A DNA stretch of 18,050 nt from Bacteroidota bacterium (lineage in GTDB: Bacteria > Bacteroidota > Bacteroidia > Chitinophagales > Chitinophagaceae). Position numbers and translations under genes: made by a program. The stretch covers positions 1-18,050 of the forward strand of contig JAEWJV010000422.1 of NCBI GenBank assembly GCA_023386395.1, written 5' to 3'. Below are positions 1,387 to 15,536 of this stretch, piece after piece. Position 1 is the stretch's first letter. Each line of letters begins with the position of its first letter. The notes beneath the pieces are model-generated. The model did no database searches and was not told where the DNA came from. It saw nothing but the letters and a program-made list of their open reading frames with translations.

Positions 1387-4206
1387 TCAAATGCATTCAT
1401 CCACGAGGTATAAGATAGATTCATAATTTTTCTTCACCGCTTCACTCATGGCTATTTCGCAGGTTTTGGTGGAGGAATAATAACCATCATATTCATGGCT
1501 GCACACTTCTTTTGCTTCAAGGGCTGTTGCAGCAGCAGTAAGTTCCGGAAAAAGAAAACCACGGTCGCCGGCCATACCACAACAACCTGCATGCACAGGC
1601 ACAGTTACTTCTTTAGCATACGCTTTTGCAATGTTTACAAATTTGTATTCTATACCCAGCTTTTCCAATGCACAAACCGGATGCAGCACCACTTTATTCT
1701 TTTTATTGACAGATGACTGAACAGTCATTACATAATCATGCAGGTAATCAACACTGTCTATAATCGTAAGCTTATCATAACACTGCTGATTTTCTTTTGT
1801 AAGCACACCGCGGATATGATGCAGCGTATAGGTGCAGGAGCTTACATCCATTACAACGGCATGTTTTCCCTTTTCACTATCTCTCCATAAATGTTCAACA
1901 ATTTTGTTGGCTGTATATTGATAGGCCGTATAAAAGCCTTTTGAAGAAAATATCTGCCCACAGCAACTGCCTGTAACATTGTTCAATACGATTACATTAA
2001 TTCCGGCCTTCGCCGAAACACTTAAAAATGTTTCCATTAAACTTTTCTTTCCATCTTCACCATTGCCTAACACCCTCGATATACAGGCAGGAAAATATAC
2101 AATTGTTTTTTTTGCACTGCCCTGCAGGTTGTTTTCAGATAACGGTTTTAAAGATGGTGGCTTTTTCAAATGATCTAACCATAACGGAACAACCGGCATA
2201 AACTTTCTCAGCATTTTTGTAATGCGATGCATGGAATGTTTACCGCCAATGTTATTAATGTTTTTACCGGTTTGCAATGCAAACCGCACCGATTTTTCAA
2301 CAAAGCCAAAATGCTTTGCCACCCATAAGGCTGCTTTATTTTCAGCAGCAGAATGATTTTCTCTTCTTAATCTTTTTACAAGATCGCCGGTATTGATATC
2401 AACGGGGCAGGCCGTTGCGCATAAGCCATCAACTGCACAGGTTTCAAGGCCATCATACTTATATTCCTTAATAAGCTGCTTATATGCAGGCTGATCCTGT
2501 GCTTTCAATTGTTGCAATGCACGCCTTGCAACAATGCGCCTTCTTGGTGTCATAGTTAAATCGCGACTCGGGCATTTATGTTCGCAATAACCACACTCAA
2601 TGCATTTATCCACTTCTTCTTCCACTGAAGGCAAAGGCTTGAGGTTTTTTATATGTGCATCTTTATCTGCATTAATTATAACACCTGGATTTAATAAGTT
2701 TTTTGGATCGGCAATTGTTTTAATGCGTTTCATTATGGCATAAGCTTCCCCGCCCCACTCCGTTTCAACAAAAGGCGCCATATTTCTGCCGGTGCCATGT
2801 TCAGCTTTTAATGCACCGTTATATTTTTTTACTACCAGTTCAACCACATCATTGATAAAACGATGATAGCGCTCCACTTCATCTTTTGCATTAAAAGCCT
2901 GCGTTACCACAAAATGGATATTGCCATCTTTTGCATGGCCGAAAATGATGGCATTATCATAATGATGTTGTTTAAACAATACCTGGAGATCTAGAATTGC
3001 ATCACCTAATAAATGCAATGGAAAAGCAACGTCTTCTAAAATAACAGTAGTACCGCTAGCTCTCACTGCACCTACAGCGGGAAATAATCCTTTGCGTATT
3101 TTCCAGTAAAATTCCCTTTGCGAAGCATCTTTTGTAAATACAGGTTTATTTAAAAGTGATAGTTTTTCAGCAGTATTTAAAAAAGCATCAACCTTTGCAT
3201 TTAATAAGGTTTCATTGATGTCCTGAAATTCAACCAGCAACGCCGCCACAGGCTCCGGAAGTGTTTTAATAACGGGGTCAATACCTTTTATATTTTCAAC
3301 AGAACGCAGCGATGCCCTATCCATCAATTCCACCATTTCTGCGCCGGAAGCTATAAGCGGTTCAATAGCTTTGCAGGCTGCATAGATATTGGTAAAATAT
3401 AAAAGTGCTGTTGATTTATAAGGCAGGTCGGGAATGGTTTGCATCACCGCTTCGGCAATAAATGCCAGCGTGCCTTCTGCGCCGATCAACAAATGCGCAA
3501 AAATATCAAGCGGATGCTCGTAATCAACCAATGCATTCAGTGAGTAACCGACTGTATTTTTTGTTTGATACTTGAACCTTATTTTATCTGATAAAGCACT
3601 ATTATTTAAAACAATATTGCGCAGGTTTATCAGCTCATCTGCAAGCGTTTTATTATTCGTGGCAAAACGGTCATAATCCGTTTTAACTTCAGTTGAATAC
3701 ATTTCACCGGATGGCAATATGAAGCGTAAATATTTTGCTGTATGATAGGAATTATATTTTACGCCGCAGCACATACCACTGGCGTTATTTGATAAAATAC
3801 CACCCATCATTGCCGCCGATATACTGGAAGGGTCGGGGCCTATTTTGCAGGCATATTTTTTAAGATAAGTGTTAACCATCGCACCGGTTATGCCCGGCTG
3901 AACCCTTACAAATGCCGCATTGTTTTCAATCGAAATTTTGTTCCAGAATTTGCTTAAATCAATTAAAATGCCATCTGTAATACACTGGCCTGAAAGGCTT
4001 GTGCCACCGGCACGAAAAACCAGCGGAATATTTTGCTGATGAGATAATACAAAAAGCTGTTTTACCTCATCTTCATTTACAGGTTGAACAATAGCTTTCG
4101 GTATAAGCTGATAAAAACCTGCATCGGAAGCATAGGTTATAACATCAATCAACCTGCTTTTAATCCGTTCAGCAGGCAAAATTTTGTGCAGTAATTCTAA
4201 TAGCAC
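1387..4206 (-). CDS. FAD/4Fe-4S D-lactate dehydrogenase-type oxidoreductase (Dld-II / YdiJ-like)
   Basis: A 939-residue fusion of the parts that GlcD- and GlcF-like enzymes carry on two chains. An N-terminal PCMH-type FAD domain (about 35-220) has RAGGTSLSGQ (65-74), GPDPSS (123-128) and GGILSNNASG (135-144). A FAD-oxidase C domain (to about 515) has GHAKDGNIHF and EHGTGRNMAPFVE. A ferredoxin-like segment has C535/C538/C541/C545 and C590/C596/C600. Two CCG domains have C748-C749 and C875-C876. Length and order match the respiratory D-lactate dehydrogenase Dld-II of Shewanella (about 934 aa) and E. coli YdiJ, a D-2-hydroxyglutarate dehydrogenase; substrate cannot be told from sequence. Likely a membrane-associated enzyme feeding electrons to quinone. 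In the second cluster, Asp593 sits where a CxxCxxC motif would have its second Cys. The start is a GTG; no in-frame ATG lies close upstream. It is divergent from the gene at 4376. Confidence 0.88.
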   Translation of the reverse strand: MLLELLHKILPAERIKSRLIDVITYASDAGFYQLIPKAIVQPVNEDEVKQLFVLSHQQNIPLVFRAGGTSLSGQCITDGILIDLSKFWNKISIENNAAFVRVQPGITGAMVNTYLKKYACKIGPDPSSISAAMMGGILSNNASGMCCGVKYNSYHTAKYLRFILPSGEMYSTEVKTDYDRFATNNKTLADELINLRNIVLNNSALSDKIRFKYQTKNTVGYSLNALVDYEHPLDIFAHLLIGAEGTLAFIAEAVMQTIPDLPYKSTALLYFTNIYAACKAIEPLIASGAEMVELMDRASLRSVENIKGIDPVIKTLPEPVAALLVEFQDINETLLNAKVDAFLNTAEKLSLLNKPVFTKDASQREFYWKIRKGLFPAVGAVRASGTTVILEDVAFPLHLLGDAILDLQVLFKQHHYDNAIIFGHAKDGNIHFVVTQAFNAKDEVERYHRFINDVVELVVKKYNGALKAEHGTGRNMAPFVETEWGGEAYAIMKRIKTIADPKNLLNPGVIINADKDAHIKNLKPLPSVEEEVDKCIECGYCEHKCPSRDLTMTPRRRIVARRALQQLKAQDQPAYKQLIKEYKYDGLETCAVDGLCATACPVDINTGDLVKRLRRENHSAAENKAALWVAKHFGFVEKSVRFALQTGKNINNIGGKHSMHRITKMLRKFMPVVPLWLDHLKKPPSLKPLSENNLQGSAKKTIVYFPACISRVLGNGEDGKKSLMETFLSVSAKAGINVIVLNNVTGSCCGQIFSSKGFYTAYQYTANKIVEHLWRDSEKGKHAVVMDVSSCTYTLHHIRGVLTKENQQCYDKLTIIDSVDYLHDYVMTVQSSVNKKNKVVLHPVCALEKLGIEYKFVNIAKAYAKEVTVPVHAGCCGMAGDRGFLFPELTAAATALEAKEVCSHEYDGYYSSTKTCEIAMSEAVKKNYESILYLVDECI

Positions 4207-4375: not shown

Positions 4376-5098
4376 ATGAGCAACGCTTTACATTACATAT
4401 CTGCACCAAAAGAAGGTTTTAAAAGTGAATTATTTGACAGGTTACTCGCTGCAGGCTATTACCGCATGCAGCACCTAATGTTTACCTGTAACGAAACCAT
4501 TATAAACAGTGATTATAAAACCATTCCTGTATTCTGGCTGCGCACTTTGGTGCAGGATGTTTTATTAGAAAAAGCTGCAAAGAATATTTTAAAAAAATGC
4601 GCCGGCTTTACAGTGCTTACTGAGCCTGCATATATAGATGATGAAATAGAAACATTATATGCCGCTTATAAAAAACATGTTCAATTCGAGGTCTCGCCTT
4701 CGTGCACCAGTTACCTGCACCAGCCTGAATTGCCGGAACCATTTGATTCGATGATGATAAAAGTGATTGACGGAAACAAATTGATTGCAGCAGGATATTT
4801 TGATAAAGGCAACGCATCTATTGCAGGCATCATGAATATTTACCACCCGCATTATCGCGCCTATAGCCCCGGAAAATTTCTAATACTGCAGAAACTGCAA
4901 TATGCCCTTTCGGAAAACATGCAGTATTATTATACCGGTTATATAAGCACAGAAAGCATACGGTTTGATTATAAAACTTTCCCGGATGCAGAAGCGGTAG
5001 AAGTATTATTGCCCGCTGAACAAACCTGGGCCTCTTACAGCAAGCTTGGAAAGCCTTTTCTTGAAGCATATTATATGCAGGTGCTGCATAATCTTTAA
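4376..5098 (+). CDS. Arginyl-tRNA-protein transferase (ATE/Bpt)-like protein
   Basis: 240 residues resembling bacterial N-degron aminoacyl-tRNA-protein transferases, which attach an amino acid to the N-terminus of proteins. The C-terminal half has the ATE_C (GNAT-fold) series in order: LYAAYKKHVQFE (94-105), PFDSMMIKVIDGNKLIAAGYFD (122-143), IMNIYHPHYRAYSPGKFLILQKL (152-174), YYYTGYISTESIRFDYKTF (184-202). The N-terminal part has GYYR at 27-30, where the family has G[FY]RR. The usual C-x2-C...C metal-binding cysteines are reduced to a single Cys38 in this stretch, so the metal site is missing. It is divergent from the dehydrogenase; the next gene starts about 150 bases downstream under its own promoter. 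The family call is quite sure; whether it is an active leucyl/arginyl transferase is open. Confidence 0.72.
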   Translation: MSNALHYISAPKEGFKSELFDRLLAAGYYRMQHLMFTCNETIINSDYKTIPVFWLRTLVQDVLLEKAAKNILKKCAGFTVLTEPAYIDDEIETLYAAYKKHVQFEVSPSCTSYLHQPELPEPFDSMMIKVIDGNKLIAAGYFDKGNASIAGIMNIYHPHYRAYSPGKFLILQKLQYALSENMQYYYTGYISTESIRFDYKTFPDAEAVEVLLPAEQTWASYSKLGKPFLEAYYMQVLHNL

Positions 5099-6068: not shown

Positions 6069-7583
6069 TTATAAAACAGCCACCGTATGATGATACATAT
6101 TTTTAAAAGACGGTTCCATTAAACCTGCAATGTTGTAAGGTTTTATTTTCTCCCTTACCGAACCAGTAAATGTATCTATATCAGCCTGCGATATAGTTTC
6201 CTGCTGCGTCAATTTGAATAAATCTTTATAGGTTGAATGTGCCATTTCCTGCACCTCGGTTTTATCCGCTTCGAGAAAATATTTTACAGGAAGGTTTTTC
6301 AATCGCTTCTGTTCATACATAATCGTAAAAGTAAAATACAACATAGACCATGCACTAAACAATTGAAAATGCCTCATTGTTTTATAACAGCCTGCAACAA
6401 GCAGATCAATTAACTTCAATTCTTCAAAAACTATATTTTCGTATTCTTTAAGCTGATCATAAAGTGGCTGTTCAAAATTTCTGTTTTCAGTCAGCATCTT
6501 TACAATTCTTTCAATACCTGCCAGTGAATACGCAATGCCGGTGCTGAAAAGCGGGTCAACAAAGCCAATGGTATGTGGCATGGCTGCCCAACCATCACCA
6601 AAACAGGCTTGCAGTTTTCTTTGCAACCTTCCAGAACGGATAATGCCACCCGGCTGCGTAGAAAATTTTGCGTCTTTCAATATAAAATCTATATCAGGAT
6701 ATTTTTCCCGCATTACGTTCCAAATTTCCTGCGTTTGCATTTTTTGCAATGAAGAGTCATTGCCGTTTAATGCAAAGCCCCAGCTTGTGCGGTTATTATT
6801 AAAACGAAGTTGCCAAATCCAGCCCTCATCTAATACATGATGTAGAGCTGAGTTATCAGCGTTATAAGGGTAATCGGATATTGCAATATTTTTTTGATGG
6901 AGTATATCTGTCCAGTGTGGCAGGTTATCAAAATGAGAAAATACCGCAAATGAATCAGTAAGAAAATTTTCTGCGGATGACTTCACTGAAAACAGTTTAT
7001 CAGCCAGCGCTCCGCTGCCGGTTGCATCAATAAAAAAAGACGCATGAATGTTTTGACCATTACCATTGCAATTAACGGCAATTTCCCATTTACTATTTTT
7101 CCTTATGGCCAATGTAATTTCCGTCTCATCAAAATAATCAATACCCGTTTCTTTAACTTTTGATACAAGAAAGGCATCAATATCTGAACGCAGCCAGTTG
7201 GTGTCAGACAACTCATCGCTTATGCTAGCAGCAACCAGCAATTCGTTGATATGATTATCGTCTGTTGAAAATTCTTTGCCAGGATAATGTTTATAATAAC
7301 TAAAGCCTCTTTTAATTCCACAAACGATTTCAGGATGTGCTTTTTGCCAGCTTCCATATCTTGAAAAATCATATAGCCAGGGCAGGTTATACTTTGAAGA
7401 AAGTGAACGCAAAATCATGTCAACAATAGGTGTAGAAGACTCGCCGATTGCAAAACGCGGATGTTTGCCTTTTTCAATCAAGCAAATATTAAAGCCGCAA
7501 CTTTTTAGAATAAGCACAGTAAGTGCGCCGGCGAAGCCGGCGCCTGCAATTACAATATAATAATGTTTAGATCGATTCAACAT
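6069..7583 (-). CDS. Flavin-dependent halogenase-like FAD oxidoreductase
   Basis: 504 residues. It opens with a FAD-binding Rossmann motif GAGFAG (14-19), then GESSTP (47-52), the signature position of flavin-dependent halogenases and geranylgeranyl reductase-like enzymes. A KRGFSYY stretch (K91) lies where phenolic halogenases have the lysine thought to hold the hypohalous acid intermediate. IDATGSGALAD (about 185-195) and FVDPLFSTGIAYSLAG are the second FAD-contacting regions. The halogenase WxWxIP motif is present only in part: W255-I-W257-Q-L-R. Halogenase is the best guess, but a non-halogenating hydroxylase or desaturase is possible; no flavin reductase lies nearby. ATG 7583 is chosen over GTG 7601 as it gives a normal N-terminus. 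It overlaps the radical SAM gene by 17 bases, indicating translational coupling. Last gene of the operon. Confidence 0.72.
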   Translation of the reverse strand: MLNRSKHYYIVIAGAGFAGALTVLILKSCGFNICLIEKGKHPRFAIGESSTPIVDMILRSLSSKYNLPWLYDFSRYGSWQKAHPEIVCGIKRGFSYYKHYPGKEFSTDDNHINELLVAASISDELSDTNWLRSDIDAFLVSKVKETGIDYFDETEITLAIRKNSKWEIAVNCNGNGQNIHASFFIDATGSGALADKLFSVKSSAENFLTDSFAVFSHFDNLPHWTDILHQKNIAISDYPYNADNSALHHVLDEGWIWQLRFNNNRTSWGFALNGNDSSLQKMQTQEIWNVMREKYPDIDFILKDAKFSTQPGGIIRSGRLQRKLQACFGDGWAAMPHTIGFVDPLFSTGIAYSLAGIERIVKMLTENRNFEQPLYDQLKEYENIVFEELKLIDLLVAGCYKTMRHFQLFSAWSMLYFTFTIMYEQKRLKNLPVKYFLEADKTEVQEMAHSTYKDLFKLTQQETISQADIDTFTGSVREKIKPYNIAGLMEPSFKNMYHHTVAVL

Positions 7584-8523
7584 AACCAGTAGTACAACCA
7601 CATTCTATCTGTGGAAGTATTGTTTGAGTAAGGTTCATCTTTTCCAATCGTTTCTTTCTTGCTTCAAAACAAAGCGGACATTGAGACAAAAAACCAATAT
7701 CCCATGTATCAACAAACACTTGTCCCTGCTTTAACAGCAAAGCTTTTTCGAACACTTCTTCCAGCATGGCTAAAGAAGGCGGCGCATAATTACCTTCCTG
7801 CCACAAAACATCCATCACACCATTGCCCGGCCTTACCGGGATAACGGAACAACGGGCAACACCACATTCAAAAGCAAACTGTATGGATTTAAAAGTCCAT
7901 GCTATGCTTTCCTGCGGCTGCGTTATGTAAGGTGCATTTAATAAAACAAATGCACGAACATCAATGTCATGCTGATTTAAAAATATAGTTGCATTTCTGA
8001 AATCTTCCGTAGTAAGTTGTTTATTTAATCTTGGCAATACACCGGGATGAATAGTTTCCAAACCCATTGCCACTTCCAGCTTTGCATCAAGCATGCCATT
8101 GAATTCGATACAATGTTTGTTGCAAAGCTTTGGGTGATTCTCTACAACAACTCTTTTATATCCTTTAAGCAGTTTGATGATTGCAGGATATTCTTCCGGA
8201 GAGATAGCTTTTGTATCAAAAAAATTTCCGTTGTTGTAAAGCTTGATAACATCTGCCTGCGGCAATCTTTCCAATGCATGTTCAATCTGCTTAACTATTG
8301 CACCAAATGGTGAAGGGGCATCTAAAGTATTTTTCCACAGGTCGCACATCAAACATTTAAAAGCGCATTCTTTGCCTGTAAGAAAAATAGTGTTTACCGT
8401 TTCAATACCGCCTGATAAACCGGGTTCTTCTTCATGTAAAAAATGATATGGAATGAATGGGTTTAACCTGTTCTTCTCAGAACGGAGTTCAGTAATTGTA
8501 TCACTGCTATACTCATCATGCAT
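7567..8523 (-). CDS. Radical SAM enzyme with extra C-terminal Cys cluster
   Basis: 318 residues. C53-x3-C57-x2-C60 (ECAFKCLMC) is the radical SAM 4Fe-4S site. Later strands include KLYNNGNFFDTKAISPEEY (94-112), LEVAMGLETIHPGVLPRLNK (149-168) and DVRAFVLLNAP (188-198). The 'KLYN.G.FFD' and 'GLET..P.VL..LNK' stretches recall Elp3-like radical SAM proteins and the archaeosine synthase subunit RaSEA/TIGR01210, not the SPASM peptide-modifying group. The C-terminus has C282-x2-C285 and C308-x-C310, which could hold a second Fe-S cluster or zinc. It overlaps the asparagine synthetase-like gene upstream by 8 bases and the halogenase-like gene downstream by 17. Substrate unknown. The radical SAM assignment is sure; the subgroup is inference. 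Confidence 0.85.
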   Translation of the reverse strand: MHDEYSSDTITELRSEKNRLNPFIPYHFLHEEEPGLSGGIETVNTIFLTGKECAFKCLMCDLWKNTLDAPSPFGAIVKQIEHALERLPQADVIKLYNNGNFFDTKAISPEEYPAIIKLLKGYKRVVVENHPKLCNKHCIEFNGMLDAKLEVAMGLETIHPGVLPRLNKQLTTEDFRNATIFLNQHDIDVRAFVLLNAPYITQPQESIAWTFKSIQFAFECGVARCSVIPVRPGNGVMDVLWQEGNYAPPSLAMLEEVFEKALLLKQGQVFVDTWDIGFLSQCPLCFEARKKRLEKMNLTQTILPQIECGCTTGYVESI

Positions 8524-9835
8524 ACAACGAATGAAAGAATGTTCTGTATTCTATTTCACTGGCGCCAAAAACTTTCGAAAAAGCCTCTTCGGGCACTGCA
8601 CCTTCCTGGAATCTCCTCTTTTCAAATACGGGCATATCAAATCCTGTAACAGCTTTTACGCCGCGGCTTGCCACTTCTCCTTTTAATGCATATAATACAT
8701 CTTCTTTCCAGTCGGTAAGTGCTATAAACGGAATGCCTTCTGCCACTTCAATTACATTAGGTAAGGCATAAGGGCTAAAATCTTTGAATCCATATTTTTT
8801 TGAAGGCGCATAGGAACGAATATGTCCCCTGCTTTGGCCGCCGGAATAGGTTAATGAGTGTTTTATTTTATCAACGCCCCATCCTTCCTGGTATAGCATT
8901 AGGTTGTTTAAAACACTGCGTATAGTTAATTCAGGATTGGCCTTTATCGGATAATCTTTCAGGTTCTCATCACCGCCGTCACCATCGGCCATGTATTTCC
9001 AGTCGGGATATAATTCCCTTACTCTCCTGCAAAGTGCCAGCGCCATGGTAGCGGCCTCGAGATCAAGCGATTTATAATCTTCAGTCACCTTAATAGCTTC
9101 CTTGTAATTGACGTATGACAGGGGCACATCAACCACTTCAAGAAAAAGCGATAAGCCCAGTTTATCCATGAACTGGTGTGCCTGCGCTGCATCAGCGCCG
9201 CCATTTACAGATAAAGTAAAAGCTTTGAGCCTTTGCGGCGACATGCCGAGCTTCAGCATTAAATGATATAATACCAGGAATACAGAACCGCTGTCAATAC
9301 CGCCTGAAAACAAAACGCCTACCGGTTCGTTTTCAGGGATAGCCAACAACCACTTTTGACATTCATTCGCTAATGTTTCAATATATTTTTTTCCAATAGC
9401 ATCAAGGTCTGTTGGCAGCACATTTCTTTGCGGTTCAAAAAATCTCGTATATACCGGGTTGGGATCAGGACAGCCTATTACTTCAAGCTTTACCACATGA
9501 TGCGCCGGAACCATTCTTGTATAGGAAGGATGAAACTGGTGATGCAATTCACGTTGTTTCAAAAATTCATAAATCTCATCCATGCGTTCTGCTACAATAA
9601 GCAAAGGCCCTGATACCTGTTTGGCAAGAAAATAACGCATGGGCCTGCCAAGGGAACGTGCCATAAATACCTGGCGGTCTACTTTTTCAACTATAGCAAA
9701 CTGGCCATCGATTTTACGTACGGCAGCCGGGTTACCGGAGGCAACTGCAGCCGCAGCCTCCTCGTATGTCATATTGAAAATAATGTTACTGTTGTTATCA
9801 ATGAGGCTCACAAAATCCGTTACATACTGGTTCAT
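8516..9835 (-). CDS. Asparagine synthetase-like enzyme lacking the glutaminase Cys
   Basis: 439 residues. The C-terminal half has the PP-loop SGGIDS (177-182) and ADGDGGDEN (283-291) of the AsnB superfamily, which adenylates a carboxylate and joins it to an amine. The first 140 residues resemble a shortened Ntn glutaminase domain (IDGQFAIVEKVDRQVFMARSLGRPMRYF, 42-69), but residue 2 is Asn, not the nucleophilic Cys, and the domain is about 60 residues shorter than in AsnB. It should therefore not hydrolyse glutamine; it may use ammonia or catalyse an internal or substrate amide bond, as beta-lactam synthetase, carbapenam synthetase and lasso-peptide cyclases do. First gene of the operon; TGA overlaps the radical SAM ATG by 8 bases. 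A TACATTTG -7 element lies 22 bases upstream. No precursor-like ORF lies in the 130 bases upstream. Confidence 0.82.
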   Translation of the reverse strand: MNQYVTDFVSLIDNNSNIIFNMTYEEAAAAVASGNPAAVRKIDGQFAIVEKVDRQVFMARSLGRPMRYFLAKQVSGPLLIVAERMDEIYEFLKQRELHHQFHPSYTRMVPAHHVVKLEVIGCPDPNPVYTRFFEPQRNVLPTDLDAIGKKYIETLANECQKWLLAIPENEPVGVLFSGGIDSGSVFLVLYHLMLKLGMSPQRLKAFTLSVNGGADAAQAHQFMDKLGLSLFLEVVDVPLSYVNYKEAIKVTEDYKSLDLEAATMALALCRRVRELYPDWKYMADGDGGDENLKDYPIKANPELTIRSVLNNLMLYQEGWGVDKIKHSLTYSGGQSRGHIRSYAPSKKYGFKDFSPYALPNVIEVAEGIPFIALTDWKEDVLYALKGEVASRGVKAVTGFDMPVFEKRRFQEGAVPEEAFSKVFGASEIEYRTFFHSLYA

Positions 9836-9857
9836 ATATCGTAGTTTACTATAGCAA

Positions 9858-9865
9858 CAAATGTA
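9858..9865 (-). promoter_or_regulatory. -7 element of the synthetase/radical SAM/halogenase operon
   Basis: Read on the minus strand it is TACATTTG, an exact match to TAnnTTTG, 22 bases before the ATG at 9835. I see no good TTTG about 19 bases further upstream, so the promoter is supported by one half only. The predicted 5' leader is about 15-18 bases. Confidence 0.45.
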
Positions 9866-9965: not shown

Positions 9966-10601
9966 TTACTCTTTTCTTAAATAAATATTACCGCTTATTG
10001 TTTCCAGGTTCACCGCTTCTCCGCCGCCGTTAAAAGCAGCCGTTACGTTGCTGCCACCGCTCGATTTTTCATTACCATTAATAGCCACATCTGTATAAAT
10101 CGTACCGCTGATAGTGCTCATTTTCAGGTCTGCTTTACGTGTGGCTGCAAGACCCATATCAATAAACCCGCTGATGGTATGTGCCTTTACATCTTTTGTA
10201 TTGCCTTCAATAATTATATCTCCATTAATGGTTTCTACTGCAAAAGATGATTGTTCAGGAATATAAATATCCCAGTAAATTTTGCTCCTGTAGTTGCTGC
10301 AATTGCAGGAATCCTTTCTTATTTTATTGTCTTCAAATTTTGCGTTGACTGTTATGGTGTTACCTGCATCGTCAAAATCCGTAAGATAAATATCATTGTC
10401 TTTATTATCGTTTATATCAACAGAAGCTTTAGCATATACTTCATTTTTATTCCATGTAATTATTCTTATGGAATCTGCTATCTGTATATTCAGCCTGATA
10501 GATTTACCAGGCGCAAAAGCCAGGTTCTTTTCTATTATTTTTTGCGCATGGGTAAAGCAGCTTAACATGCATAATATGAGCAAGCCGGTTAAGTGTTTCA
10601 T
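9966..10601 (-). CDS. Secreted DUF4097-type protein, second paralogue
   Basis: 211 residues with a signal peptide (MKHLTGLLILCMLSCFTHAQ). The C-terminal 90 residues are short repeated strands: FAVETINGDIIIEG, AHTISGFIDMG, MSTISGTIYTD, VNLETISGNIYLRKE, the '..T.SG.I' rungs of DUF4097/adhesin-like right-handed beta folds. A CNCSNY stretch in the middle is unusual. Role unknown; such proteins are often found beside ECF sigma/anti-sigma pairs in Bacteroidota. I use ATG 10601 and not the in-frame ATG at 10619, because the latter adds MLKNNT ahead of a normal signal peptide. It follows its paralogue by 44 bases (26 if ATG 10619 is used), so both are one transcript. It ends in the same GNIYLRK as that paralogue. 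Confidence 0.82.
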   Translation of the reverse strand: MKHLTGLLILCMLSCFTHAQKIIEKNLAFAPGKSIRLNIQIADSIRIITWNKNEVYAKASVDINDNKDNDIYLTDFDDAGNTITVNAKFEDNKIRKDSCNCSNYRSKIYWDIYIPEQSSFAVETINGDIIIEGNTKDVKAHTISGFIDMGLAATRKADLKMSTISGTIYTDVAINGNEKSSGGSNVTAAFNGGGEAVNLETISGNIYLRKE

Positions 10602-10645
10602 TGTATTGTTTTTAAGCAATTAAATAGTTTATTACATCATTATTA

Positions 10646-11416
10646 TTATCCTTTTCTCAGGTAGATGTTACCACTCACGTTGGTAATTTTAAGGCTGGCA
10701 CCGCCACCGTTCAGCTTACTTGAAACAGAATTACCGCCCACACGTTTAAGGCCTTTATCATCATTGGGAAAATTGAAATCAGAATAAATGCCGCCGGAAA
10801 TATTTTTCAATTCTACATCCATTGCAGTAGCTGCGGGCACAGTAACATCAATGTCGCCACTTACAGAAGCAAGAGAAACCGGCCTGTCTTTTGCGAGCGA
10901 GGCAAAACTTATATTGATATTGCCGCTTATGGTATAAAAAACAAGTGGCCCTGAAACATTCTTCACTTTTATATCCTGGCAATTTTTTATAGCCAGTTCC
11001 CCCTTCATATTAGATACCGTTACGTCGCCGGAATGACCGCAATCATTATCTATCTGGATATTGAAATTATCCGGCACTTTAATTTTATAATTAGCCCTTT
11101 TGGTTATAGGCAATAAACACTGCAGCACTACCTGGTTGCCGTTTTTATCAGCCGATACAGCTATGCCTGTATTATCTGTGCCGCCGGCGTAAACAGGCTT
11201 CAATCCCTTAGCTCTTTCAGGCACATTAGCGGGCAAATCAGAAGTAATAATTATCTCATTGCCGCTATAGCCTTCCACCGGCAAATCGCCGGGGAAATTA
11301 TTCAATACCAGCTTGCCATCTTTTGTATTCTGCACCGTTACTTTATATTCCTGTGCATGCAGGCAGAAAGACGGAAGGCAAACCATTAACACTAAAACAT
11401 AACATATCTGTTTCAT
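10646..11416 (-). CDS. Secreted DUF4097-type protein, first paralogue
   Basis: 256 residues with a signal peptide (MKQICYVLVLMVCLPSFCLHAQ). The N-terminal part has EYKVTVQNTKDGKLVLNNF and VEGYSGNEIIITSD, strands typical of DUF4097 proteins. The C-terminal part stacks 'SG' rungs: VKNVSGPLVFY, TISGNINISF, LASVSGDIDVTV, LKNISGGIYSDF, ITNVSGNIYLRKG. The very end matches the neighbouring paralogue, so the pair probably arose by tandem duplication and has diverged. A GGNSVSSKLNGGGASL loop here resembles GGSNVTAAFNGGGEAV in the paralogue. Function unknown, presumably cell surface or periplasm. The 171 bases between it and the anti-sigma gene hold no ORF and only a 4-bp hairpin. Confidence 0.83.
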   Translation of the reverse strand: MKQICYVLVLMVCLPSFCLHAQEYKVTVQNTKDGKLVLNNFPGDLPVEGYSGNEIIITSDLPANVPERAKGLKPVYAGGTDNTGIAVSADKNGNQVVLQCLLPITKRANYKIKVPDNFNIQIDNDCGHSGDVTVSNMKGELAIKNCQDIKVKNVSGPLVFYTISGNINISFASLAKDRPVSLASVSGDIDVTVPAATAMDVELKNISGGIYSDFNFPNDDKGLKRVGGNSVSSKLNGGGASLKITNVSGNIYLRKG

Positions 11417-11587
11417 TCTTATAAATTTTAAATAGTAATTTTTAAATGACCCTTTGGGTTTTATGGACTTTTATATTACCGGCAAATGAACTGCGATTAA
11501 GCACGATTGCGTCGCATTACCTTCATCTGCACAGCGCTATGCAGCTCCGGTTTCCTGTTCATAACCCGTTTTTATTGAAAACAAAAA

Positions 11588-12403
11588 TTATAAAACTTTA
11601 AGTCCCTTTTCCGCTATCTCTTTTACAGGTGGTAATGTGTTTTTATCTTTCAGTATATCCTGTATAGGCGCTTTGGCTTTGGTTTCCTTTTTCTCTGTAA
11701 GGATATTGATCAATGCAATCTGCATAAGCGGTTCTGTTTGTTTGCCTAGCGATGCCACCAATGCGTTGCTTACTTCATCATTATTGGAAAACTTTGCAAG
11801 CGCATACAGGGCAGCCAAACGCACATTTACATTATCATCTTCATTAAGAGTAGTAATAAGCGCCATAACAATTTTATTATCGGGGTTCGTTATTTCATCG
11901 GCATAACCTACCGCTTTAATACGCTCACTGGCTGATCCTTCATTCAGCAATTTCACTGTTAATGTTTCCTTCATTTCGTTCACTTCGTTTTTCAATTCAG
12001 CAACCTGCCCGTTTCCGGGTTTATTGTTTGTTATAGTTGTACCAATAAAGAAGCCTGATACGATAAGTATAATGCTGGCTGCGATCCTGTATAGCAAAGT
12101 ATAACGGTTAATAGGCTTAACCACAGCAGCCTTTTCTTCAGGCTTATTTACAATGTTTGCAGTAGCTTCTATGTTTAGCTCACTCTGCAGCATGCTTTCA
12201 AATTTTTCGCGCAGCGCCGGGCCTGGCTTTTTGATTTTATCATTCTGTATGCTCTCAAAAACCTGCCTGTATTCTTCCAGCGCCTGCCTGCATTTCGTGC
12301 ATTCATTCAAATGCTTTTCCAATGGCGCCTTATCATTCGGATGCAATTGCGCATCCAGGTAATCTATCAGCAACGATTCGGCTTCATAACACTGCATAAT
12401 CAA
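11588..12403 (-). CDS. Zinc-finger anti-sigma factor with HEAT-like periplasmic domain
   Basis: 271 residues. The N-terminal cytoplasmic zf-HC2 finger has C5 and H31-x3-C35-x2-C38 (HLNECTKC), the usual ligands of anti-ECF-sigma factors. One membrane helix follows at about 105-125. The periplasmic C-terminus (about 155-271) is helical with VRLAALYALAKFSNNDEVSNALVASL and LMQIALINILTEK, the pattern of HEAT/ARM-like repeats. Its role would be to bind the sigma factor and release it on an envelope signal, perhaps through a protein partner of the repeats. It starts 5 bases after the sigma stop (12409), so it is translationally linked. ATG 12403 is used; ATG 12397 (MQCYEAE) is equally possible. Confidence 0.85.
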   Translation of the reverse strand: MIMQCYEAESLLIDYLDAQLHPNDKAPLEKHLNECTKCRQALEEYRQVFESIQNDKIKKPGPALREKFESMLQSELNIEATANIVNKPEEKAAVVKPINRYTLLYRIAASIILIVSGFFIGTTITNNKPGNGQVAELKNEVNEMKETLTVKLLNEGSASERIKAVGYADEITNPDNKIVMALITTLNEDDNVNVRLAALYALAKFSNNDEVSNALVASLGKQTEPLMQIALINILTEKKETKAKAPIQDILKDKNTLPPVKEIAEKGLKVL

Positions 12404-12408
12404 ATCTC

Positions 12409-12948
12409 TTATTGTTTAAAATAAAGTAACCTTAGTTCTTTTAATGCCCGATGTATCTGTACTTTAACAGCGCTTAACGACATGCTTTTCATCTTTGCTA
12501 TTTCTGCATATTTCAAACCTTCGTAGCGGCTTAAAACAATCAGTTCCCTGTCAACCGGCCCCAGGCCCGCCATAGCCTTTTTCAATCGTTCAAAATCATG
12601 TTCTTTAAACCCATCCTCTTTTTCCAAAACATCTTCCGGATATTCAGGCACATTTTTAATCACTTCGCTTAATCGCAGCTTTTCCCTGCAATGATCGGCA
12701 TGCAGGTTTCTTGCCATCTGGTACATCCATGATTTAAAGCTCCCGGCTGCAGCATTAAAGCTGTTGCGGTAACGTAATATGCGATAGAACAATGATTGTG
12801 TAAGATCTTCGCTTATCGCAGCTTCAGCCGTTAGCCGCAGGAAAAAATTATATACAGGCACATTATAACGATCGAACAACTGCGTTAGTTCGGCCAATTC
12901 ACCGTCCCTTACCTTGTACATTATTTTCTCATCTGTCAGTTCAGCCAC
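12409..12948 (-). CDS. ECF RNA polymerase sigma factor
   Basis: 179 residues with both ECF parts. Region 2 (about 22-90) has FDRYNVPVYNFFLRLT, EDLTQSLFYRILRYR and FKSWMYQMARNLHADHCR, the core-binding and -10 recognition helices. Region 4 (about 120-172) has GLGPVDRELIVLSRYEGLKYAEIAKMKSMSLSAVKVQIHRALKEL with the helix-turn-helix that reads the -35. The start is a GTG at 12948, giving the usual short N-terminus. The anti-sigma gene follows after 5 bases, then the two DUF4097 genes, which are the probable targets of the sigma. A possible weak -7 element (TATCTTTC) lies at 12987-12994, overlapping the upstream terminator. Confidence 0.92.
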   Translation of the reverse strand: MAELTDEKIMYKVRDGELAELTQLFDRYNVPVYNFFLRLTAEAAISEDLTQSLFYRILRYRNSFNAAAGSFKSWMYQMARNLHADHCREKLRLSEVIKNVPEYPEDVLEKEDGFKEHDFERLKKAMAGLGPVDRELIVLSRYEGLKYAEIAKMKSMSLSAVKVQIHRALKELRLLYFKQ

Positions 12949-13398: not shown

Positions 13399-13521
13399 GA
13401 GAAAAATATTATTACAAAGATTGATATTTTTATCAGCTTCTTATGGCTGTAAACCCGGATTCCCAAATTTCCGTAATGCAACGGCAGCAATGCTTACAAA
13501 ACAAATATGTATTTTTATTGT

Positions 13522-14136
13522 ATGGAAGTGAGAGAACCCGCTGTAGCTTACGGCAAGCAGAAAATTTCGATTGAGGAATATCTTGAAATGGAAGAAGCCT
13601 CAACGGAAAAACATGAATATTACCAGGGAGAAATTTTTGCTATGTCTGGCACAAAAGTGCCGCATAATATCATTGCTAAAAATTTATTAGGAAACCTGTT
13701 CATCAAGCTTAAAGGCAAAAAATGCCAGCCTTTTGGAAGCGATCAGCGCATACATATACAATCTAATACGCTTTTTACTTATCCGGATATTTCCATTGTT
13801 TGCGGCGAATTAATTACGCTGAATAATGATAACTGGAACGTTTTAAATCCCGCAGTAATAATTGAAGTGCTTTCTCCTTCAACCAAAAATTATGACCGCG
13901 GCGAAAAGTTCAAACTTTACCGCGATATACCAACACTGAAAGAATATTTGCTGGTTGATTCGGAAAGCATACATATTGAAGTATTCAGGCTTAATACAAA
14001 CCATCGCTGGGAGCTGGAAGAATATAATTTATCCGAATATTTAAACATAAAAGCAATTGATGAAACACTATTAATTGCCGACATTTATGATGGCATAACC
14101 ATGGATAATAAACGGCCTGGCCCATCCGGAACATAA
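13522..14136 (+). CDS. Uma2-family (DUF820) endonuclease-like protein
   Basis: 204 residues with the PD-(D/E)XK-type core of Uma2 proteins. It has [29 protein letters not shown] (15-43), YPDISIVCG (D89), [11 protein letters not shown] (E115) followed by [25 protein letters not shown] (122-146). These are the conserved acidic residues and the lysine-rich helix of the family. Uma2 genes are common in cyanobacteria and Bacteroidota and often multicopy; biological function is not settled. ATG 13522 gives the expected N-terminus ([11 protein letters not shown]); the in-frame ATG at 13507 would add MYFYC. It stands upstream of the MATE gene, which has its own promoter. Confidence 0.85.
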
Positions 14137-14160
14137 AAGTGTTAAGGCTTCTTATACTGC

Positions 14161-14191
14161 TTTGCCCATTCCTTATTACCGCTTAGCTTTG
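14161..14191 (+). promoter_or_regulatory. Promoter of the MATE gene
   Basis: TTTG at 14161-14164, a 19-base spacer, and TAGCTTTG at 14184-14191: an exact match to the Bacteroidota TTTG-N19-TAnnTTTG promoter. The ATG is at 14199, only 8 bases after the -7 element, so transcription should begin at or next to the start codon. Confidence 0.75.
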
Positions 14192-14198
14192 CGCCCCC

Positions 14199-15536
14199 AT
14201 GCAACTAACCGTAGAAATAACCAATAAGCAAATACTTCGTATTGCACTCCCTATTGCCCTTTCTATATTGGTTCCTAATATAAATTTCATAACTAATAAT
14301 ATTTTTCTTGGTCATTTAAGCGAAGAAGCATTGGCTGTAGCAGGCATTACAGGTGTTTATTATCTTGTTTTTGGCGTAATGGGTTTTGGATTAAGCAGCG
14401 GCCTGCAGGCTTTAATGAGCCGCCGGGCCGGTGAAAATAAAGCAGGCGAGATCGGGCTCCTATTTTTCCAGGCAGTACGCGTTGCATTGGCATTTGCTAT
14501 TGCCGGTATTTTAATTACATGGTTTATTGCTCCTGCTATCTTAAGATATTCGCTGCATAAGGAACAGGATATACAAATGGCTATTGATTTTTTACGCATC
14601 CGTATTTGGGGGTTGCCGTTTTTATATATTTACCAGTTACGCAATGCTTTACTCATCAGCATTAATAAAAGCAAATACCTGATAATAGGAACACTGGCAG
14701 AAACATTAGCCAATATCTTCTTTGACTATGCTTTTATTTTCGGGCATTTTGGTTTTCCTGAAATGGGTTTTAACGGTGCTGCTTATGCATCTATCATTGC
14801 AGAATTTACCGGCCTTGTAACTATTTTCAGCGTGATTCATTTTAAAGGTATTGGTGAAAGCATTAATCTTTTTAAGAATAAAAAGCTTAATCTTAACTCC
14901 ATAAAATTAATTCTCCACCAATCTTCCCCGCTCATATTACAGTTTGCTATTAGTTTGGCAAGTTGGGAATTTTTTTACATCCTTATTGAACATCATGGTA
15001 CACAGCCGCTTGCTATTTCAAATATTATGCGCAACATGTTTGGCATATTCGGATGTTTTGCCTGGGCGTTTGCTTCAGCGAGTAATAGCATGGTGAGTAA
15101 TATTATCGGGCAAAAATTGGATCATCGTGTAAAAGAGCTCATTTATAAAATAACCAAACTCGGTTTAATATTTTCTGTTTGCATAGCAATTCTTATAAAC
15201 CTGTTTACCAAATTCTTTTTAAGCGCTTATGGCCAAAGCGATAGTTTTATAGAAGCTGCTATTCCAGTTGCCCGCGTAATTTCTTTTGCACTTGTACTAC
15301 AATCTGTTTCAACAATATGGCTTAATGCAGTACTAGGTACAGGTAACAGCAGAAGAAACCTGGTAACAGAAACAATTGCTATTATCTTGTATTGCATATA
15401 TGTTTATACAGTGCTTGAATATTTGAATCTCTCTATTACTATTGGCTGGATGAGCGAATGGATATACTGGATAGCCTTATTCGTTCCCTCTTATTGGTAC
15501 ATACAAAGCAATAAATGGATGGGCAAAAAAATATAA
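14199..15536 (+). CDS. MATE-family multidrug/Na+ exporter
   Basis: 445 residues, normal length for MATE proteins, with about twelve hydrophobic helices in two similar halves. Typical stretches are LRIALPIALSILVPNINFITNNIFLGHLSEEALAVAG at the N-terminus (positions 12-48), MGFGLSSGLQALMSRRAGENK (61-81), and in the second half QSSPLILQFAISLASWEFFYI and FASASNSMVSNIIGQKLD, the MATE repeat. It should be an inner-membrane cation-coupled exporter; substrate unknown. It lies 62 bases after the Uma2 gene but has its own promoter ending 8 bases before the ATG, so a very short or absent leader is expected. It is convergent with the small membrane protein gene, 14 bases apart. Confidence 0.93.
   Translation: MQLTVEITNKQILRIALPIALSILVPNINFITNNIFLGHLSEEALAVAGITGVYYLVFGVMGFGLSSGLQALMSRRAGENKAGEIGLLFFQAVRVALAFAIAGILITWFIAPAILRYSLHKEQDIQMAIDFLRIRIWGLPFLYIYQLRNALLISINKSKYLIIGTLAETLANIFFDYAFIFGHFGFPEMGFNGAAYASIIAEFTGLVTIFSVIHFKGIGESINLFKNKKLNLNSIKLILHQSSPLILQFAISLASWEFFYILIEHHGTQPLAISNIMRNMFGIFGCFAWAFASASNSMVSNIIGQKLDHRVKELIYKITKLGLIFSVCIAILINLFTKFFLSAYGQSDSFIEAAIPVARVISFALVLQSVSTIWLNAVLGTGNSRRNLVTETIAIILYCIYVYTVLEYLNLSITIGWMSEWIYWIALFVPSYWYIQSNKWMGKKI

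Follow-up and report, generated by a model that had tools for sequence, protein, structure and literature searches.

Three overlapping genes on the minus strand of a Chitinophagaceae genome encode an AsnB-like ligase, a radical S-adenosylmethionine (SAM) protein and a flavin-dependent halogenase-like protein (HAL), and this trio is inherited as one unit and associated with FG-GAP/UnbV β-propeller proteins. The genes lie in an 18,050-nucleotide stretch of DNA (contig JAEWJV010000422.1, assembly GCA_023386395.1), which was analyzed as a whole and is hereafter called the window. There is good support for the three enzymes acting in a single pathway. Moreover, with a probability of about one half, we consider the trio a dedicated pathway whose product, with an amide and possibly a halogen in it, would be a ligand or cofactor used by an envelope UnbV/FG-GAP system, because a product serving this system would be the simplest reason for both the adjacency and the co-occurrence described below. 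In the portions of the literature that were searched, neither the combination of the three genes nor its link to UnbV proteins is described.

The open reading frames (ORFs) reproduce the three overlapping genes of an earlier note on this DNA, the first sharing 8 bases with the second (8516-8523) and the second 17 bases with the third (7567-7583), all on the minus strand (Table 1). In this case, HAL is read from the ATG at 7583, an alternative upstream GTG giving an ORF of 6069-7601. The shared promoter-like element that had been claimed is also present and is kept in close relatives: TACATTTG, a match to TANNTTTG, which we take to be the Bacteroidota -7 element, starts 30 bases before the AsnB start codon (9865-9858 read on the minus strand), the gap between AsnB and the next gene in the window being 130 bases. 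Among the 13 loci listed, a TANNTTTG match starts 30-32 bases upstream of AsnB in eight (the window, L001-L005, L007 and L011; loci and genomes carry L and G numbers, respectively), lies 21 bases upstream in L009, where a different start codon was chosen, and 55 bases upstream in L036, and was not found in L013, L019 and L023. Over the 72 loci tested, it occurs at most 110 bases upstream of AsnB in 26, compared with 0/72 in an intragenic stretch of equal length. A sigma-70 scan showed no excess of sites (14, compared with 13.2 in shuffled sequence).

Table 1. Positions of the trio genes and of the promoter-like element in the window.
Feature	Positions	Strand	Remark
AsnB-like amide/lactam-forming ATP-dependent ligase (predicted)	8516..9835	minus	first gene, 439 aa
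RaSEA-like radical SAM protein	7567..8523	minus	second gene, 318 aa
Flavin-dependent halogenase-like protein (PltM/CtcP group), HAL	6069..7583	minus	third gene, 504 aa
Promoter-like element TACATTTG (TANNTTTG)	9858..9865	minus	TANNTTTG recurs upstream of AsnB in relatives

A scan of genome contigs with an alignment of the radical SAM protein yielded 463 pattern matches and 277 relatives, of which the best 80 were kept; together with 5 and 16 further loci and the window they make 102 loci, or 98 once four duplicates are dropped. Also, 247 Bacteroidota genomes (centered on G001, chosen for having the trio) and 149 Planctomycetota genomes (one center), all of unstated completeness, were sampled. 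The radical SAM protein (E≤1e-20), AsnB (E≤1e-60) and HAL (E≤1e-40, six candidates scored per genome, the other searches being capped too) are each found in 17 of the 247 Bacteroidota genomes, and these are the identical 17, HAL never occurring without the other two genes. In Planctomycetota, the radical SAM protein is present in 5/149 genomes, center included, and the trio is found there too, in some cases split over contigs. These relatives and genomes reject the idea of a one-genome curiosity, and beyond the 80 relatives kept the trio may extend to further phyla.

The order AsnB-radical SAM-HAL is also maintained: of the 89 loci where at least 1.5 kb upstream is available, 78 have AsnB on the same strand and at most 3 kb upstream, and HAL is found downstream in 68 of the 84 with at least 1.7 kb downstream. 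Where AsnB is not adjacent, 11 of 12 genomes have it at another place in the assembly, some of these cases being contig breaks, and only the genome of L055 has none. For the 16 genomes whose locus lacks HAL, a strong HAL match lies elsewhere in six, a weak one in one, and none in nine. Moreover, pairwise distances between loci are correlated for all gene pairs (radical SAM-AsnB, r 0.87, 79 loci; radical SAM-HAL, 0.90, 65 loci; AsnB-HAL, 0.94, 56 loci). The compact unit proposed from the window is supported: it is conserved in genomes far removed from this one and fits no standard cluster type, and a non-exhaustive search showed none of the three genes with a closer partner in an established pathway. 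The nearest relative among the loci retrieved, Parafilimonas terrae (L001), shares 95% identity in AsnB and 88% in the radical SAM protein and has the same flanking genes, so that the window probably derives from a Parafilimonas-like member of the Chitinophagaceae. AsnB-radical SAM fusions had seemed possible from long ORFs (670-685 aa) at three loci, L066, L077 and L093. This candidate was rejected from G184 (L093, the same locus as L066), where the two matches lie in different frames and the ORF is a read-through; the genome of L077 holds a separate AsnB match.

The widest recurrent neighbor of these loci is the FG-GAP/UnbV_ASPIC family, found by tblastn in 35 of the 98 non-duplicate loci. 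Two types of UnbV protein are distinguished, A6 (~1190 aa, with TPR, FG-GAP, UnbV and a conserved C-terminal part) and A7 (~600 aa, frequently accompanied by a membrane protein resembling RnfD or by one resembling multihaem cytochromes), and for both the solved relative is human CRTAC1 (9etn; E 1.5e-17 for A6 and 4e-41 for A7). The A6-type gene stands beside the trio or the AsnB-radical SAM pair in 25/98 loci, and 19 of the 42 loci flanked by 8 kb or more on each side have a UnbV match within 6 kb. The placement differs between lineages: in Chitinophagaceae and Mucilaginibacter the gene follows HAL convergently, in Flavobacteriaceae it precedes the trio in the same direction, and in Saprospiraceae it comes downstream, after a cytochrome; on a Draconibacterium contig, the UnbV gene occurs with hydrazine-synthase (HZS)-like genes. 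This suggests that the link arose, or survived rearrangement, more than once. RnfD-like, multihaem-cytochrome-like and HZS-like proteins are the electron carriers that neighbor trio or pair loci. Judged by eye from their N-termini, the UnbV proteins would be lipoproteins or membrane-anchored.

A recurrent cluster of UnbV genes was noticed in L123-L126, where SusC-like and SusD-like proteins, an A6-type UnbV protein of ~1150 aa, another of ~600 aa and an RnfD-like protein are encoded together, L123, L125 and L126 adding a UnbV protein of ~1110-1140 aa; possibly this is an uptake and electron-transfer system.

The association is also visible at the level of whole genomes. UnbV domains are found in 118 of the 247 Bacteroidota genomes, including all 17 with the trio, each of which has at least five copies, a number reached by 42/247 genomes in our own table count. 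For A6 (two candidates scored per genome in Bacteroidota, four in Planctomycetota), matches at E≤1e-60 occur in 24 Bacteroidota genomes, 17/17 with the trio and 7/230 without it (P 5e-21, or ~2e-10 when the 17 genomes are collapsed to nine lineages by our own grouping from the tree). In Planctomycetota, A6 discriminates less well: matches at E≤1e-20 are present in 84/149 genomes, the two top-scoring ones lacking the trio, and at E≤1e-60 in 41/149, among them 5/5 trio genomes (P 0.001).

Concerning the enzymes, the PP-loop, the CxxxCxxC motif, the additional C-terminal cysteines and the FAD motif listed in the earlier note are all present and conserved in their families. The AsnB-like protein has a β-lactam-synthetase/AsnB fold, passes the cut-off of PF00733 (Asn_synthase; 43.7 bits, cut-off 21) and belongs to a strongly conserved family (mean column identity 57% in an alignment of 38 Bacteroidota and Planctomycetota rows), in which the PP-loop residues SGGIDS are invariant except G178 (30 Gly, 8 Ala; n=38). 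It reaches 43.4 of the 267 bits required by TIGR01536 and shares only 12-16% identity with β-lactam synthetase, carbapenam synthetase and AsnB. In contrast to these enzymes, its glutaminase domain is missing the initial ~40 residues, the model beginning at about AsnB residue 40, and no conserved Cys was found near the N-terminus in the 38 rows, so the nucleophilic Cys of a glutaminase is missing. Glutamine-dependent amidation by this enzyme alone is consequently rejected. AsnB-like enzymes are chemically versatile and are described as forming amides, lactams and nitriles (PMC13060819).

The radical SAM protein has the CxxxCxxC motif (C53/C57/C60) in 43/43 family rows and a barrel fold (model with a predicted local distance difference test score of 94.8), the features of its superfamily, and its C-terminal cysteines are kept in 39/43 rows (C282, C285 and C308) or 38/43 (C310). 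A fold search with this model gave no separation from other barrels. The resemblance to RaSEA claimed in the earlier note is real, since the protein aligns with nearly the whole TIGR01210 model, although its 95.9 bits are under the cut-off of 212.15; for the nucleoside role suggested at the same time, nothing was found here beyond this resemblance.

HAL passes the cut-off of PF04820 (50.5 bits, cut-off 21) and is nearest to PltM (E 1e-42) and CtcP (E 1e-28). Its Lys91, present in 30/30 rows, aligns with the catalytic Lys87 of PltM (chain position 107, i.e. 87 after an apparent 20-residue tag) and with K98 of CtcP; in PltM, the K87A variant is described as inactive (PMC6424973). As in both enzymes, the GxGxxG motif is kept, with G14 in 30/30 rows, G16 in 29/30 and G19 invariant. 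W255 (30/30) and W257 (29/30) are followed by x-L-R in the consensus, and HAL differs from PltM and CtcP in having WxWxLR for the halogenase motif WxWxIP and no polyketide synthase (PKS) or non-ribosomal peptide synthetase (NRPS) cluster around it. HAL may halogenate or oxidize an aromatic ring.

We infer the following sequence of steps. The AsnB-like enzyme would adenylate a carboxylate at the expense of ATP and join it to an amine of the substrate or to free ammonia, since the site for taking ammonia from glutamine is absent. The radical SAM enzyme would act next, introducing a radical C-H, C-C or C-N change in the conjugate and, in most lineages seen, the PltM-like flavoenzyme would halogenate or oxidize an electron-rich aromatic ring of the product. 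Finally, this product would become a small ligand or cofactor for the FG-GAP/UnbV (CRTAC1-like) β-propellers, presumably at the cell surface, and for associated membrane or periplasmic electron carriers. With an amide ligase, a radical SAM enzyme and a flavoenzyme active on phenols, amino acids could be turned into a redox cofactor, and a ligand or cofactor that diffuses could be scavenged by genomes without the trio.

Several observations weigh against a role of the product in the UnbV system. No UnbV gene lies beside the trio in the window or in its nearest relative L001, which is the reason why the link, visible only in other relatives, was missed by the earlier note; 23 of the 42 loci with long flanks have no UnbV match within 6 kb, many Balneolaceae loci lie amid sugar-catabolism genes, and among planctomycete loci UnbV adjacency is seen in L080 only. 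Moreover, just two of the 17 trio genomes (G001 and G012) give a full-length A6 match; in the other 15, and in the seven without the trio, the match is confined to the C-terminal part, ~500-815 positions out of 1186 (428-618 bits), so a broad family is meant and not a strict orthologue. Also, the A6 alignment was built from trio-linked proteins, that of G012 included, the sampled genomes are related, and both center genomes were chosen for carrying the trio. Within Chitinophagaceae, a test with any UnbV domain is not significant (5/5 trio genomes and 83/147 overall). The seven genomes with A6-type UnbV and no trio (G172, G176, G212, G220, G224, G232 and G251) imply that the trio is not required for A6 to exist. 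Finally, the difference between WxWxLR and WxWxIP means that HAL could oxidize its substrate and not halogenate it.

The strongest competitor, a real but clearly less probable alternative, is a self-contained secondary-metabolite pathway for an antibiotic, a signal or a pigment, in which case the co-occurrence with UnbV would come from shared lifestyle or lineage and not from function. This would agree with the patchy distribution (17/247 Bacteroidota and 5/149 Planctomycetota genomes), with the differences in neighborhood between lineages and with the closeness of HAL to the natural-product enzymes PltM and CtcP, and UnbV domains are common without the trio (118/247 genomes overall). Against it stand the adjacency of UnbV genes in several arrangements and in all ten loci without HAL and the contrast between 17/17 and 7/230 genomes for A6, and no export or other cluster gene was seen recurring beside the trio across lineages.

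A narrower form of the ligand or cofactor pathway, which we hold as tentative and on the whole unlikely, is that the trio makes a diffusible redox cofactor or metal ligand from free amino acids, with no peptide precursor, for a surface system of CRTAC1-like propellers and cytochromes. Its steps would be amide ligation, radical cross-linking or cleavage, and the halogenation or oxidation of a phenol. Genomes that have the propellers and not the trio would take the product up from neighbors; some bacteria take up pyrroloquinoline quinone in this way. The seven genomes with A6 and no trio are candidate cofactor scavengers, or the two traits are independent.

Less probable still is a role in maturation, with the trio modifying residues of UnbV/FG-GAP proteins ahead of their export in the way that QhpD and QhpG act on quinohaemoprotein amine dehydrogenase. 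The occurrence of a radical SAM protein and a flavoprotein of the halogenase/QhpG fold near exported propeller proteins recalls that system, where related folds (QhpD radical SAM, QhpG flavoprotein) serve an exported multi-subunit enzyme, and the presence of A6 in 17/17 trio genomes would fit it. QhpG is, moreover, the best NCBIfam match of HAL, although far under its cut-off (67.7 of 240 bits), HAL being nearer to PltM. However, the QhpD model is not among the NCBIfam matches of the radical SAM protein, and in many genomes the trio and the UnbV genes are located apart. To our knowledge, maturation of quinohaemoprotein amine dehydrogenase has no counterpart of the AsnB-like enzyme. In a weak test, 43 large UnbV proteins that came from loci or genomes with the trio, other long UnbV proteins included, were compared with seven from genomes without it; no position conserved in 93% or more of the first set was missing throughout the second, which makes a covalent modification of UnbV less favored.

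Finally, a tRNA or nucleoside modification like that of ArcS/RaSEA, in which the AsnB-like enzyme would attach an amino acid and the RaSEA-like enzyme would cleave, shares with the trio a radical SAM enzyme partnered with an enzyme that couples an amine to another molecule, but it is very improbable: the radical SAM protein is under the RaSEA cut-off, its partner is AsnB-like and not ArcS, the trio proteins are acidic (pI 5.5-6.3), the unit is bacterial, patchy and tied to a phenol-type halogenase and UnbV proteins, and no nucleoside-modification gene was seen recurring among the partly annotated neighbors.

The loci without HAL delimit the unit. Ten come from genomes with no convincing HAL (nine with none and G407 with a weak match only), and UnbV genes are present in 10/10. 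Nine of them form one clade (support 100/100) in a midpoint-rooted tree that leaves the direction of change unsettled, and the tenth, L016, stands among relatives with HAL and may reflect a loss or an incomplete assembly. The existence of one lineage without the flavoenzyme suggests that AsnB and the radical SAM protein are the core. In three of these loci (L016, L068 and L074), HZS-α-like and propeller-cytochrome genes, named on the basis of one member from L068 and one from L074, accompany FG-GAP/UnbV genes, and L068 and L074 also carry ABC-type binding-protein genes. These loci are of the same kind as the HZS-like clusters beside CRTAC1-family genes described for non-anammox bacteria (PMC12758564), an article in whose main text the terms "radical SAM", "asparagine" and "halogenase" have 0 occurrences each. 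The two sets differ in that HZS-like genes are present in few trio or pair loci only. As an observation in its own right, L068, L074, L016 and L122, all from non-anammox Bacteroidota, have HZS-α-like and β-propeller cytochrome genes by the AsnB-radical SAM genes, by UnbV genes or by both.

As had been claimed from the window, no precursor peptide, PKS/NRPS, protease or transporter gene lies directly beside the trio there, a MatE transporter being 4.4 kb away. Among 441 ATG-started intergenic ORFs (20-100 aa, at most 1.5 kb from the trio), no family is found in more than four loci, and each set corresponds to one group of relatives. A ribosomally synthesized and post-translationally modified peptide with a nearby precursor is thus rejected for this 1.5 kb, the rest of the genome not having been searched. 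Anti-phage defense was likewise rejected (0 PADLOC families for the three proteins at E≤0.01), as was the presence of the AsnB-like gene on plasmids, where no match reached E≤1e-20.

The window neighbors (arginyltransferase-like, DUF3108 and GlcD/F-like) were discarded as members of the unit, the set being common only to L001 among 80 loci. The gene at 4376-5098 (+) matches the C-terminal half of arginyl/leucyl-tRNA-protein transferase (ATE_C, 59.7 bits) and not ATE_N, and encodes an unusual short Bpt/ATE relative also present in Parafilimonas terrae. The 939-aa protein encoded at 1387-4206 (-) joins a GlcD-like FAD oxidase to GlcF/GlpC-like Fe-S domains; at three loci (L014, L021 and L022) relatives of it are found ~6-7 kb upstream of the trio, probably by chance. 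Directly upstream of the trio, 9966-12948 (-) holds an extracytoplasmic function (ECF)-type sigma factor, a zinc-finger/HEAT anti-sigma-like protein and two DUF4097 proteins, and a hairpin was seen by eye between this operon and the promoter-like element of the trio. The MatE transporter follows a Uma2 nuclease-like protein (13507-15536, +), and neither was seen recurring beside the trio elsewhere. In Balneolaceae (L033, L035, L039, L046, L052 and others), the trio lies, by eye, amid xylose-isomerase, xylulokinase and PfkB-kinase-like genes with a GMC-oxidoreductase-like gene nearby, a lineage-specific context.

The trio would add a biosynthetic unit that has no adjacent conserved precursor peptide, PKS, NRPS or transporter. 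Moreover, the searched portions of the literature assign no biochemical role to the bacterial UnbV/ASPIC (CRTAC1-like) propellers. Then, a strictly co-inherited trio that stands beside UnbV genes in several lineages, and whose every Bacteroidota carrier sampled also has one UnbV type (A6-like), gives a concrete handle on UnbV/ASPIC proteins.

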